52,388 bases of DNA from contig CANQDC010000003.1 in assembly GCA_947591455.1 (NCBI GenBank), forward strand, positions 1-52,388, given 5' to 3'. The translations under genes and the position numbers were made by a program. Source of the stretch: an uncultured Bacilli bacterium. GTDB taxonomy: Bacteria; Bacillota_I; Bacilli_A; RF39; UBA660. Positions within the stretch are counted from its first letter, which is position 1; the number at the start of each line of letters is the position of its first letter. Below the pieces are notes generated by a model. The model did not search any database, was not told the DNA's origin, and saw nothing but the letters and a program-made list of their open reading frames with translations. Of this stretch, positions 7,765 to 44,783 are shown piece after piece.

Positions 7765-8898
7765 ATGAAATTAATAAAACTGGATAAAAATTATGATATA
7801 AAAGTAAAAAGTCAAGTGACCCATTTTTTAACTCCTGATTTTATTTATATTCCCATTGAAAATAGACCGCTTCCATTTAAAAGAAATCAAGAAATTAAAA
7901 AAGAAGAGTCAATTTTTACTGATGTATTCTCTCCTATTTCTGGAAATATTATTGGTGTTTCCAATGGTACTTTTTATGATGGACAAACGAAAAAATGTCT
8001 TGTTTTAAAAAATAATTATCAAGAAAAAGTAAAAAATAGAGTAGCTACACGAAAAAAATTAAGTACCATTACGATTGAAAATATCAAAAATGAAATCAAA
8101 AGAGCGGATTTACAAGAAAAATTATTGCATTTAGATAGCAAACATCTAATCGTCTGTGGAATTGATGAAGAACCTTATATAGCCAATGAAGTATTTATTC
8201 AAAAAGAAAATACCAAAGAAATATTAGAGACGTTGGATGCTTTGTTAAAGTTTTATGAAAACGCCACAGCTCATATTATAATAAAAAATATTGATAGTGA
8301 AAATATAGAGAGTTATTCTAATTTTTTAGGGACATACCAAAATATTGAGCTACATTTAGTCGATGATTATTATATGATCGGCGAAGAACAAAATATTATT
8401 AAATCTTTACATATTAAAGAAGAATATATTTATCTAAAAGCAAGCGATGTTTATGAAATTTATTATAATTTGAAAAAAAGAAAGCCAATCGTCGAAAAAT
8501 ATATTACCATTACAGGAGATGGAATAGCCAATCCTCAAGTTTTTGCTGTAAAATTAGGAACAAAACTAATGGATATTTTAACTGTGAATTATGATCTTGA
8601 TTTCACTAAATATGATCTTTATGTGAATGGGCTTATGAGAGGGAAAAAAATAAATATTGCCAATTTAATCGTGACGAAAGAATTTGATGGAATACTTATT
8701 ATGAATAAAAAGAAAAAAGAACCAAAAGAATGTATTCGTTGCGGGAAATGTATTGAAATATGTCCAATTCATTCTAATCCTATGATGGCTTATTTAACTC
8801 ATAAAAAAGTTCCTTGTATTGAATGTGGTTTATGTTCTTATATATGTCCATCTTATATTCATTTAAGAAAATATTTAATAGGTGATAGTAATGAGTAG
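7765..8898 (+). CDS. RnfC-like iron-sulfur protein lacking the flavin-binding loop
   Basis: Resembles RnfC, the NADH-oxidising subunit of the Rnf ion-pumping complex. Visible parts: N-terminal biotinyl-like barrel (~residues 24-80, with FSPISGNIIGV), a Rossmann-like middle retaining CGIDEEPYIAN where RnfC has NGxECEPYxTSD, an SLBB domain (~246-310, ITGDGIANPQVF), and two [4Fe-4S] motifs with C323, C326, C329, C333 and C351, C354, C357, C361. The glycine-rich GGxGFPT loop that binds FMN/NADH in RnfC is not there; its place (~110-125) is lysine- and leucine-rich. 377 residues versus about 440 usual. ATG 7765 follows AGGTG; a GTG at 7756 is inside that site. TATAAT at 7743. Overlaps the RnfD-like gene by 8 bases. 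Alternative: a ferredoxin-like protein re-used outside Rnf. Confidence 0.75.
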   Translation: MKLIKLDKNYDIKVKSQVTHFLTPDFIYIPIENRPLPFKRNQEIKKEESIFTDVFSPISGNIIGVSNGTFYDGQTKKCLVLKNNYQEKVKNRVATRKKLSTITIENIKNEIKRADLQEKLLHLDSKHLIVCGIDEEPYIANEVFIQKENTKEILETLDALLKFYENATAHIIIKNIDSENIESYSNFLGTYQNIELHLVDDYYMIGEEQNIIKSLHIKEEYIYLKASDVYEIYYNLKKRKPIVEKYITITGDGIANPQVFAVKLGTKLMDILTVNYDLDFTKYDLYVNGLMRGKKINIANLIVTKEFDGILIMNKKKKEPKECIRCGKCIEICPIHSNPMMAYLTHKKVPCIECGLCSYICPSYIHLRKYLIGDSNE

Positions 8899-9796
8899 AT
8901 TACATAAAAAAATAACGATTTCTTTGCTTCAAAAATATTATATAGCTTTTTTCTTTTGTATACTATTTGGTATTTTTAAAAATGGCCTTCTTCCTTATGT
9001 TAAAGGGTATTCCAATATTTCCGAAACAATCACAATACTTATTTTGCCTATTTTATGTTTTGGAATAGGGTTTATTTTCGATCTTATTTTCAAAAATCGT
9101 GAAATGTTTAACAATCGTTTTTTTGCCTTACTTTTCTTACTCATGATTCCCGTTCAATCAAATCTTCTTTTTGTATTATTATTTTTATGTATTTGTTTAT
9201 TTTTATATAACTATATTAAAAAATGGCAAAAAAATAGTTTCTGGAATTGGATGGTAGGGATCAAATTATTTTTTGTTTTTTTACTGATATCGTTTCATAG
9301 TTATGGGTATGAAAATGTTTTAGAATTAAGTAAAGATTTTCAATATTCTTTTCTTGATTCTTTTATCGGATTTCATGTAAGTGGCCTGTATATTTCTAGC
9401 ACTATGATTCTATTTTTGTTTTTATTTATTTTTTGTTTTGATTATTATTATAAAAAGGAAATTGTTTTATATAGCTATGGTATATTTGGTATATCGTTAT
9501 TAGTGTACTCTTTATTAAAAGAAAATATGGGATTTATGCTGATGCATTTATTAGATAGCAATATATTATTCCCTTTAATTTTTATTGCTCCCTTATCATT
9601 ATTTTCACCTTATTCGAAAAAAGGAAAGTGGTTATATGGCATTTTAATTGGTATACTCACGTTACCATGCATTTGTTTAACCAATGTTTATGAAGGAACC
9701 TATATCGCTATATTTTTTGTCAATATTCTCTTTAATTTATTAAATTTAGTGATAAAAAGCGAAAGAAATCATATCAAAAAAGTAGAAAATGAATAG
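8891..9796 (+). CDS. RnfD/NqrB-like membrane protein (divergent)
   Basis: 301 residues, eight or nine hydrophobic segments. The resemblance to RnfD rests on two places: SFIGFHVSGLYISSTMIL (~155-175) at the position of the RnfD GxxxGxIGETSxLALL stretch, and FSPYSKKGKWLYGILIG with a following YEGTYIAIFFVNILFNLL (~235-285), matching the end of RnfD (PxTKKGxxxxGxxxG...YPEGVxFAILLMN). The covalent-FMN threonine motif of RnfD is not recognisable. ATG 8891 is inside the end of the RnfC-like gene with GGTGAT upstream, so the two are translationally coupled. No rnfA, B, E or G gene is nearby. Assignment is by pattern and by partnership with the RnfC-like gene; a database profile search is needed. Confidence 0.6.
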   Translation: MSRLHKKITISLLQKYYIAFFFCILFGIFKNGLLPYVKGYSNISETITILILPILCFGIGFIFDLIFKNREMFNNRFFALLFLLMIPVQSNLLFVLLFLCICLFLYNYIKKWQKNSFWNWMVGIKLFFVFLLISFHSYGYENVLELSKDFQYSFLDSFIGFHVSGLYISSTMILFLFLFIFCFDYYYKKEIVLYSYGIFGISLLVYSLLKENMGFMLMHLLDSNILFPLIFIAPLSLFSPYSKKGKWLYGILIGILTLPCICLTNVYEGTYIAIFFVNILFNLLNLVIKSERNHIKKVENE

Positions 9797-9874
9797 CAAA
9801 CCAAATTTTCTGCTTTTTGTTTGTTTTAAATAAATATGATATTTTAAGAGTACCCCTCCAAGAAAGGAGACATA

Positions 9875-10279
9875 GTGCTTATAAAATTTCATTTTTTAGT
9901 GATTCAACTATTTCTTTCTTTTCTTTTTTCTAAAGAAATGATAAATACCAAACTGATAATACCTAGTTTAGAAAAGACTGAAAAGTTACATATAAGTTTG
10001 AATAAACATGAATTCAATGCGAAAAACATAAAAATTACTTTCCAAAAAGATCAAATCATTCTTCAGGTTAAAAATAATGTAGCAAAAGAATTTTTAAAAG
10101 TAAATGATAAAATTAAAATATGTTTTCCAGATCAAATTGCCTATTATCGTGTGGTAGAAATTAAAAATTGGGAAGAAAAAGAGGAGCAATGGATTGTGAA
10201 AGCTCAAATGAGTGGCTACTTAGAAAAAAAAGAGAAAAATACGAAATTTATGACAAATTTCGTATTTTTTGATGTTTAA
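9875..10279 (+). CDS. hypothetical protein with N-terminal hydrophobic segment
   Basis: 134 residues from a GTG start (9875) with AAGGAGA five bases upstream. The first ~20 residues are hydrophobic (signal peptide or membrane anchor); the rest alternates beta-strand-like hydrophobic and charged residues (IKITFQKDQIILQVKNN), suggesting a small beta-rich domain outside the membrane. No FMN-attachment motif, so it is not RnfG. The last codons are inside a perfect 15-bp terminator hairpin. Follows the RnfCD-like pair after a 78-base gap; linkage to it is possible but unproven. Family not recognised. Confidence 0.65.
   Translation: MLIKFHFLVIQLFLSFLFSKEMINTKLIIPSLEKTEKLHISLNKHEFNAKNIKITFQKDQIILQVKNNVAKEFLKVNDKIKICFPDQIAYYRVVEIKNWEEKEEQWIVKAQMSGYLEKKEKNTKFMTNFVFFDV
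10235..10270 (+). terminator. strong intrinsic terminator inside the end of a coding region
   Basis: AAAAATACGAAATTT (10235-10249) pairs perfectly over 15 bp with AAATTTCGTATTTTT (10255-10269), loop ATGAC, followed by a T. It lies completely inside the 3' end of the 134-residue gene, whose stop is at 10277-10279. Confidence 0.75.
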
Positions 10280-32097: not shown

Positions 32098-32930
32098 TTA
32101 ATCATCAAATAAATATTGATTTTGCGCCCTTATTTGAGGTTGTTTTAATTTTTTTAAAGCCTTATGTTCAATCTCTGAAATATAAGATTCACTTACATGA
32201 TAAAGATTAGCTATCTCTCGTAATTTTTTTTCTTGAAACTTACGCATCAGTAATATCTTTTTTTCTTTTTCCGTTAAACAATTTAATCCTTTATTAATAT
32301 AAGAAAATAAATTTTGATAAATAATTTGATTTTCTAAAGAACATTCTTTCTTACTAGTAAGAGAATTATAAGCCATTTCGCAATCATTTTCTAATTCATT
32401 TAAACTAACTGGGTAATCAGAAACTGAAAATAAATCCGAATTGTTTCTTTTGATAATCCAACACTTTGTTCAATTTCTTCAATCGTAGGAAAACGTTGAT
32501 TGAATTGATTCATAAATTGTAAAATCTTTTTAAACTCTTTTTCTTTATTTACGGGAATGCGAATCAATTTGCCCTTTTCAAACAAAGCATTTTCTATTTC
32601 ATTCTTAATACAACAAGTAGCAAAAGTAGAAAATTTATTATTTTTGTTCTCTTGAAAATTATTAACCGCTTTAATAAGACCGATATTTCCTTCCTGAATT
32701 AAATCTATAAACTCTAAGCCTCTATTTCGATAATGCTTGGCAACAGGAATAACCAGTGCCAAATTATGTTTAACCATTAATTGCTTTGCTTCCTCCGCCC
32801 CATCGGCCACTTGTTTCAATAATTTTGTTTCTTCTTCTTCTATAGTTAATAAAGGAATTTGCCGAATCAAATAGAAATATTGATCTGTACTATCAATAAA
32901 ATATAAATCGGGCTCAAATCGATCATTCAT
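32098..32930 (-). pseudogene. sigma-70 family factor split by a frameshift
   Basis: Two frames make one sigma factor. Frame 1 (ATG 32930 to TAA 32400) holds region 1.2 (YLIRQIPLLTIEEEE), region 2 ([24 protein letters not shown]) and region 3 to IRIYFQ. The continuation, YPVSLNELENDCEMAYNSL, is in the -1 frame and runs through region 4 (LREIANLYHVSESYISEIEH) to TAA 32098. PVSLNE is the conserved region 3/4 linker, so the join is certain. Adding one T to the run of four (32427-32430) restores a 277-codon gene. May be a pseudogene, a sequencing error, or a phase-switching site. Last gene of the gatCAB operon, four bases after gatB's end region; a group-2/alternative sigma by sequence. Confidence 0.85.
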
Positions 32931-42788: not shown

Positions 42789-44783
42789 TTAGATGGCTAG
42801 AACTACACGGAAAGAAATACTATTAACTCCATTTCCATGAGTTCTTCCAATATAAAATGGACCAGCCTCAAATCCACTACGAAAATGTCCTCCTCGAACA
42901 AACCATGGAGTACTACTAGATTCATTACCAAATGGGAAAAATGCTGTATTTTTATACCAACCACTCACTGTTCGATCACTGTTTTCTACTCCAGTACTTT
43001 CAATACGATAATGTATTTTATAAAAAGGACCAAGTTCTTTCGTTGCATCTCCTAAGATTCCGCGACTATAATCATACGCATTAGTACTATAACTATAAAC
43101 ATCATAATATTTAGACTCTGGTAAATCAATTCCATCTGTCACCTCTTGGCCGTCTAAAGTTTTACCCTTAAATCCAGAATTACGACTTATTTTTTGACCT
43201 GAGGCCGGAATATTAGAATTACTTTCTGCTTCCATACCTGCTAAAACAAATTCTAAAGATCCACCACTTAAATCATAGATACCTGTATAATTTCCTGTCG
43301 TGCTAGCTAAGGTGCTTAAATTATTAAAATAGTTAACAGTATATTCTCCATCACTTCCTGCTTCAGAAGGACCATGTTCATTACATGCATTTGGATAACT
43401 AGAACATGGTTCCACTGTTGAGGATCCAATATCTCCCGTAGTCGGATTATTTCTAGCCGCATAACCGGTTAAATGAGAATCATTATTATTTACTCTTACT
43501 CTACTATCATCATTACATTGATTATCTTTACATCTACCATATTTAGAATTTGTAAGGTACGCTACTGCTCCCCATTCTGTATTCTTCATCATATGACTGT
43601 CTAATTCTCTTTGATAGTTATAACTTACTAAATGAGCATTAGCTAATTGAATACTTCTCCAACTATAGACATTTGGCTTGATTTGTAATTTTTTTGCTGC
43701 TTCAATAGCTTCATCTGCACTAGCTGGATTTACCTCAGCAGCTTTTGTTGACTCTGCATCTTTATATCCTGATTCAAACTTACCTACCCATATTCCATTG
43801 ACTCCAAAGGCTGTAAAGGCTGGATGAGTAAGCCAATCAGTAGCTTTTGATCCATTTGATGCAATATCATTGGTTGTTTCAAATTGTATTTCAATTGGTT
43901 GAACTTTGCTTGATAATTGTGTCTCGTCTTCAACTCTTGTTGTATAATTCCCCTCATCCCATATTTTATATTTATATCTTGGGATCCATACAAAATAACT
44001 TTCTATGCTATCTTCATCTATTACTGCTCCCACTTCTGGTTCTTGAGCTTCATCTGCTAATATAACAGCATTTGCCCATTCTTGTTTTCCGTATTCATAC
44101 CATTTCTCTTCTAGATTGGCTCTTTTTACTTCTCCTTTAGCATCTATAATTACTGGAATTAAGTTTTCTCCTAATACTGGATCTGCTCCATTTAATAGAT
44201 CCTCTTTATAATAAGCATAATGGATATTTTCAGAAGTTACAGTTACTTTACTGGTGAAATTCTTATTCATAGCATCATCATTGATATCTACACTTTCATC
44301 TACCCATAATTTTAATGAAAAATCTTTTTCTTCGCCTGCTTTAATCGTACCTGTAGTTATTTGATAAGCTTTGTTTGCTGTAAAATCTGTTTCTTTTACT
44401 GTAGGATCGACTGTACTATATGTATTTAACAGTTCTTTACTATTTCCATTATAAGAAAGAGCTATATATTCATCACTTAAGACATCATTTTCATCTTTTA
44501 CTTCTAATTGGACACTATACGTAGCATCAACATTACATGTATTATGTATTTTAAAAGTAAAAGGGGTTAAAGCTTCTGCTTCTTTATCGGTTATAGGGAA
44601 TTCTTTTAATAAAGAGATATTATTTTGTTCTTCCTCGATATTTACTTCTAAGCAATTTGTATTTAATCTATTGATTGTTTCTTGACTTGCTTGGAAAGTC
44701 CAATAAGCATAACTGACTCCTATAATTACTACGATAAAAAGAAAAAGAAAAATGACGATTATATTTTTATGCTTCTTCTCCAT
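42789..44783 (-). CDS. surface protein: SipW-type signal, beta-domain, C-type-lectin/FGE-like domain
   Basis: 664 residues. The N-terminal membrane signal (MEKKHKNIIVIFLFLFIVVI, then GVSYAYWTF) and a following beta-sandwich (~40-200) resemble TasA/camelysin-type proteins handled by SipW-like peptidases. The C-terminal ~330 residues have the formylglycine-enzyme/C-type-lectin fold pattern: NTEWGAVAYLTNSKYG, YTGIYDLSGGSLEFVLAGM, WFVRGGHFRSGF and SFRVVLA at the very end. FGE active-site cysteines are not evident, so it is a binding fold rather than an enzyme. This architecture is frequent in gut Bacillota and in variable proteins of diversity-generating retroelements. Monocistronic, controlled from the operator region at 44.8 kb. 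Confidence 0.8.
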   Translation of the reverse strand: MEKKHKNIIVIFLFLFIVVIIGVSYAYWTFQASQETINRLNTNCLEVNIEEEQNNISLLKEFPITDKEAEALTPFTFKIHNTCNVDATYSVQLEVKDENDVLSDEYIALSYNGNSKELLNTYSTVDPTVKETDFTANKAYQITTGTIKAGEEKDFSLKLWVDESVDINDDAMNKNFTSKVTVTSENIHYAYYKEDLLNGADPVLGENLIPVIIDAKGEVKRANLEEKWYEYGKQEWANAVILADEAQEPEVGAVIDEDSIESYFVWIPRYKYKIWDEGNYTTRVEDETQLSSKVQPIEIQFETTNDIASNGSKATDWLTHPAFTAFGVNGIWVGKFESGYKDAESTKAAEVNPASADEAIEAAKKLQIKPNVYSWRSIQLANAHLVSYNYQRELDSHMMKNTEWGAVAYLTNSKYGRCKDNQCNDDSRVRVNNNDSHLTGYAARNNPTTGDIGSSTVEPCSSYPNACNEHGPSEAGSDGEYTVNYFNNLSTLASTTGNYTGIYDLSGGSLEFVLAGMEAESNSNIPASGQKISRNSGFKGKTLDGQEVTDGIDLPESKYYDVYSYSTNAYDYSRGILGDATKELGPFYKIHYRIESTGVENSDRTVSGWYKNTAFFPFGNESSSTPWFVRGGHFRSGFEAGPFYIGRTHGNGVNSISFRVVLAI

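Follow-up and report, generated by a model that had tools for sequence, protein, structure and literature searches.

The DNA analyzed here (the window, 52,388 nucleotides) is one contig of a 1.03-Mb genome that is 67% complete, and its close named relatives are uncultured Bacilli MAGs, mainly from the gut, including UBA660 and Candidatus Caccenecus. In the interval from uvrC to dnaG, the plus strand of the window encodes an RnfC-like protein of 377 amino acids (positions 7765 to 8898, ATG start), an RnfD/NqrB-like membrane protein of 301 amino acids (8891 to 9796) and a degenerate sortase-like exported protein of 134 amino acids (9875 to 10279, GTG start). The stop of the RnfC-like gene and the start of the RnfD-like gene overlap by 8 nt, in agreement with the coupled gene pair proposed in the initial annotation. 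No RnfB-like gene was noticed adjoining the pair, and the locus carries neither a gene for an extracytosolic flavoprotein nor a conserved partner gene.

The first product matched the NCBIfam rnfC profile (TIGR01945) with an E value of 4.5e-39, at 134 bits and under the cut-off of 246, and its top PDB match was an RnfC chain (7zc6_C, E value of 1.8e-26). The AF2 model (pLDDT 92.6, from a 44-row alignment) matched solved RnfC chains over the whole length, with TM scores of 0.82 to 0.86. The protein comprises a barrel, a NuoF-like domain with the FMN loop deleted, an SLBB-like domain and a C-terminal domain with two [4Fe-4S] motifs. An earlier claim that the RnfC barrel and the SLBB domain are kept is thus supported by fold, but by sequence both fall under the Pfam cut-offs (RnfC_N, 14.8 bits; SLBB, 16 bits). 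When RnfC_N was used as a family for genome searches, zero matches were obtained, because the barrel of the pair is too diverged. The two CxxCxxCxxxCP motifs (8731 to 8850) supply eight cysteines, C323, C326, C329 and C333 plus C351, C354, C357 and C361, which are the predicted ligands of two [4Fe-4S] clusters. Both motifs are complete in 44/44 pair sequences, whereas the GxGGxxFP flavin/NADH loop is deleted in the window protein and in all pair members, as the initial annotation had described for this protein. Besides the eight cysteines, S59, G60, N83, N288 and two prolines are invariant in the 44 pair sequences. N288 opens an N-G-x-M-x-G stretch (8626 to 8643) and is a derived invariant residue, the same position being Gly in 94% of the RnfC proteins of full Rnf systems.

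The second product matched PF03116 at 53 bits (E value of 3.3e-14), above the cut-off of 27.7, and scored under the NCBIfam rnfD cut-off. PF03116 is its only Pfam domain, and the NAD-binding domain PF00175 is absent. Its AF2 model (pLDDT 95.0, 44-row alignment) had NqrB and RnfD as best Foldseek matches, with TM scores of 0.62 to 0.74, so that both single-chain models of the pair resemble the folds expected from the first reading of the sequence. In solved Rnf complexes, a covalent FMN and a riboflavin carry the electrons through RnfD (PMC11889175, PMC9588780). The TPL motif, with the Thr that binds this FMN, was found in 16/17 full-Rnf relatives and in none of the pair members with readable sequence, window included, which confirms the missing flavinylation motif. 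Using the riboflavin ligands N123 and D249 of Acetobacterium woodii RnfD as reference (PMC11889175), N123 corresponds to N119 of the window protein and is Asn in 33 of the 44 pair members; D249, the riboflavin/Na+ Asp, corresponds to Leu235 and is Asp in only 8. A Glu that lies beside the FMN, on a proposed Na+ path, is also lost. Three charged residues, K30, E145 and K188, are invariant across the 44 sequences. K188 belongs to a Y187-K188-K189-E-I signature (9449 to 9463; canonical IKWRI), located in the loop joining two membrane helices, whose first three positions are conserved at 95%, 100% and 95%, respectively. The N-terminal arm, to which RnfC is anchored in solved Rnf, is shorter here, the first helix beginning at about residue 12.

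Next, RnfA, RnfE and RnfG-type subunits, as well as ApbE, were sought beyond the locus. PF02508 (RnfA/E) gave no match in the window's own genome, in 22 sampled genomes of the genus (own plus 21 congeners, 11 of the 22 with a completeness of 90% or more) or, above the cut-off, in the 26 pair genomes (one per genus); these genomes are MAGs, so one absence may be an assembly gap, and the pattern rests on many genomes. Likewise, PF04205 (RnfG-type FMN_bind) and PF02424 (ApbE) were absent from the own genome, and ApbE from all 26 pair genomes; FMN_bind was present in one of them (G041), in an unlinked ORF. Consequently, the idea that the missing subunits are encoded elsewhere was rejected for RnfA/E in the own genome, the congeners and the family, and for FMN_bind and ApbE in the own genome. 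Diverged RnfA/E proteins overlooked by Pfam were also considered, and family-specific profiles gave none near the pair or near the intermediate genes described below. No sampled genome combines the pair with an above-cut-off RnfA/E. The absence of Rnf partners, noted at first around the locus, therefore extends to RnfA, RnfE and RnfG-type genes in the genome and, for RnfA/E, to the relatives that carry this pair. Of the two findings that the initial annotation had named as refuting, further Rnf genes in the genome and dissimilar predicted structures, neither emerged for the subunits sought and the two folds.

In a family survey of 117 genera, with one genome each and classes that are not phylogenetically independent, the short pair was present in 26 genera, RnfA/E (full or nearly full Rnf) in 21, an intermediate state with canonical-length RnfC and RnfD and no RnfA/E in 14, and a cluster-less RnfC barrel alone, of 267 to 289 amino acids, in 4. 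The remaining genera had none of these classes, two further matches being short and ferredoxin-like. The pair is thus widespread in the family and not a one-genome curiosity. C-D adjacency held at 24 of the 25 survey pair loci, and the remaining locus has masked sequence. Scanning 84,980 species genomes yielded at least 534 loci encoding relatives; among the best 80 of these, all carry both Fe-S motifs and 72 are loop-less, with RnfD adjacent at 70 of the 72. When 395 genomes of the class were sampled, the matches outside the family, among those listed, were canonical in length and score. We found no earlier account of an RnfC/RnfD-only module in the open-licence papers searched.

The barrel-only proteins, which lack the Fe-S domain and an RnfD, are the furthest reduction stage (L063:5875-6678, L064:6809-7636, L065:577-1446 and L090), and three of the four lie downstream of uvrC. 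As for the intermediates, eleven can firmly be described as "C and D only"; of the other three, G022 and G046 retain ApbE and an RnfG domain in fused form, and the G075 locus abuts the end of its contig. Among the 14, 6 have an intact RnfC loop, 7 have an altered one and 1 has lost it, and the TPL motif of RnfD is lost in most intermediates without RnfG and kept in two (L056 and L077). In the RnfC tree, pair and barrel proteins fall together on one side of a branch with 100/100 support, and the intermediates are dispersed among full Rnf; well-supported branches require at least five changes, a pattern that suggests reduction on several independent occasions. The uvrC/dnaG neighborhood is common to pair and barrel loci and, with one exception, is absent from full and intermediate loci; the pair may therefore be an old paralogue or a relocated copy and not the product of in-place decay. 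At the full Rnf loci of the family (L057:3444-7764, L066 and L082 to L088), we also observed that RnfD and RnfG form a fusion, in some cases with two FMN_bind domains, and that the RnfB-like product has about 85 to 95 amino acids and lacks the usual ferredoxin modules.

The dN/dS ratios (NG86) in nine close pairs of sequences were 0.10 to 0.29 for the RnfC-like protein and 0.09 to 0.37 for the RnfD-like protein, values that are approximate because dS is 0.67 to 1.6, near saturation. N288 and the YKK residues are conserved in the pair, and canonical proteins have other residues at these positions, indicating that the module gained a constraint of its own besides losing earlier ones; these derived invariants argue for an altered, selected role. 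Together with the invariant cysteines and the dN/dS ratios, they identify the pair as a derivative of RnfC-RnfD that is specific to this clade and under purifying selection, and as neither a relic nor a pump.

The third gene had been described as coding for an exported protein of unknown type. The product looks like a degenerate sortase: it matched by phmmer the products of relatives at L099 (9e-8), L115 (7e-4) and L101 (0.012), two of which, from L101 and L115, have Pfam Sortase matches (1.4e-15 and 3.7e-13, respectively). The 134-residue protein lacks the catalytic Cys motif, and its gene is syntenic with intact sortases of relatives. In these, genes for a sortase and for a surface protein of the thioester-domain/SpaA type often occupy the gap from rnfD to dnaG, of which the window retains the sortase-like remnant alone (Pfam TED, SpaA and Sortase; for example, L031:7236-10176, L032:2784-5106, L050:3268-4999 and L101:4267-5635). 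Many sortases at this position in the window's genus have no catalytic Cys. A sortase-like gene was present at 38/118 pair loci (duplicates included) versus 0/39 canonical-type loci. Since only some pair loci contain the cassette, often in degenerate form, it is not needed for the pair and was dismissed as its partner; the third gene is probably a neighbor outside the module.

Compared with known systems, the pair resembles RnfC and RnfD of A. woodii, C. tetanomorphum and A. vinelandii in folds and in C-D order, and its first protein shares with RnfC the two [4Fe-4S] motifs in the C-terminal domain. It differs in lacking the FMN/NADH loop, the covalent-FMN site, mostly the riboflavin Asp, and RnfA, RnfE and RnfG-type genes, and in scoring under the NCBIfam rnfC and rnfD cut-offs. 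In Na+-NQR, NqrA is an RnfC relative that has lost its cofactors, a likeness to the RnfC-like protein, and the RnfD-like protein has its best fold match in NqrB (TM score of 0.72 to 0.74). However, Fe-S clusters are missing from NqrA, which belongs to a pump of six subunits, and NqrB retains its flavins. PrdC and PduS, like the RnfC-like protein, are RnfC relatives outside the Rnf pump; we know of no RnfD-like membrane partner for them, and PduS uses a flavin. Two-subunit Nqr/Rnf-like complexes, composed of an RnfG-like protein and an RnfD with an NAD-binding domain, share with the pair the number of subunits and an RnfD-like protein without the flavinylation Thr, but they retain the flavinylated RnfG-like partner and the NAD-binding domain, whereas the pair has an RnfC-like partner and neither of these (PMC10979944).

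In the solved Rnf route, electrons pass from RnfG to the FMN and riboflavin in RnfD, then to the clusters and FMN of RnfC, and finally to NAD+ (PMC11889175, PMC12174285). Lacking RnfA/E/G as well as the flavin and NADH sites, the pair cannot use this route. Since pump subunits and flavin sites are lost and two parts are kept under strong selection, the pair must perform something other than ion pumping in the known way.

As the best explanation, to which we assign a probability of roughly 0.4, the pair would be a membrane-tethered two-cluster carrier of the ferredoxin type, whose output would be either an acceptor or a signal to the RnfD-like domain. By analogy with RnfC, the RnfC-like protein would sit on the cytosolic face of the RnfD-like protein, and its clusters could reasonably exchange electrons with a low-potential cytosolic ferredoxin. 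This ferredoxin might be supplied in reduced form by pyruvate:ferredoxin oxidoreductase (PFOR), whose genes, as well as those of an [FeFe]-hydrogenase, are present in the own genome. The pair would neither oxidize NADH nor pump by the Rnf mechanism. Its output could be an acceptor at the membrane or, in the working model that we prefer, a signal acting on the conformation of the RnfD-like domain, so that redox state would gate a membrane domain with a relationship to the Na+ path proposed for NqrB/RnfD; in solved Rnf, the RnfC clusters adjoin RnfD, which is one proposed Na+ path (PMC11889175, PMC9588780). In favor of this explanation, the eight cysteines are invariant in 44 divergent sequences that have all lost the flavin loop, and K30, E145 and K188 never vary despite the loss of the known RnfD cofactor sites; the low dN/dS ratios, the C-D adjacency, the two folds, the derived residues and the lack of RnfA/E and ApbE in pair genomes point the same way. 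The shortened N-terminal arm of the RnfD-like protein counts against it. A link to PFOR or hydrogenase was considered and rejected, as neither co-occurs specifically with the pair. In its more specific form, the two-cluster protein would sense ferredoxin reduction and control a flavin-free channel or transporter of the NqrB/RnfD fold, a version that we regard as unlikely; an ion channel is not predicted from the Na+-path residues, because the RnfD-like protein lost the conserved Asp and the Glu beside the FMN.

The same invariant Fe-S motifs would also suit another arrangement, somewhat unlikely in our judgment, in which the RnfD-like protein is a mere anchor and the RnfC-like protein passes electrons from ferredoxin on to a partner, either soluble or peripheral, much like PrdC and PduS, which are RnfC relatives employed outside Rnf (PMC1796856). 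Nevertheless, the invariant polar residues K30 and E145 exceed the apparent needs of an anchor, and the locus offers no conserved partner gene. Less probable is a structural or scaffold role, in which the clusters would serve the structure and their redox chemistry would be unused, comparable to NqrA, which operates cofactor-free (PMC12174285). The four barrel-only genera, three of them at the same uvrC-linked locus, imply that the barrel is of some use even when clusters and RnfD are missing, but the strict conservation of eight cysteines in otherwise fast-evolving pair sequences speaks against this role.

A transmembrane relay, as the initial annotation had proposed, would carry electrons from a cytosolic donor through the RnfC clusters and across the membrane via RnfD to an outside acceptor. 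RnfC clusters do exchange electrons with the RnfD riboflavin in solved Rnf (PMC11889175), and the riboflavin Asn and Asp retained in 33/44 and 8/44 pair members suggest that some members might still bind riboflavin. However, a relay needs an RnfD cofactor, for which there is little evidence: the covalent-FMN Thr is absent from pair members, the Asp is lost in most of them, window included, and neither ApbE nor an extracytosolic flavoprotein gene at the locus is found. With the RnfD cofactor sites mostly lost, the relay is poorly supported, and we consider it doubtful. Last, a decaying, functionless remnant, with which the small genomes, the fast evolution (end branches mostly of 0.4 to 2.1 changes per site) and the graded losses among relatives would agree, is extremely improbable, as frames are open in 26 genera, residues are invariant in derived states, and the purifying selection seen in dN/dS, together with the invariant cysteines, contradicts it for the pair taken as a whole.

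Rnf, a redox ion pump of ancient origin, is displayed by this gut-bacterial family at graded stages of reduction. Since the old pair clade keeps C and D, as canonical-RnfC lineages have repeatedly done, a use of the C-D subcomplex without flavins or pumping is suggested, and what RnfC clusters and the RnfD fold do alone becomes a testable question. If true, redox gating of a channel or transporter by the two-cluster protein could also explain why several canonical-RnfC lineages keep C and D after RnfA/E loss.

Elsewhere in the window, on the minus strand, a sigma-70-like factor is apparently split into two ORFs (32098 to 32930; 176 amino acids, followed by 92 amino acids resembling region 4), and a 664-amino-acid protein with an N-terminal signal-like helix, to which no type was assigned, is encoded at 42789 to 44783.
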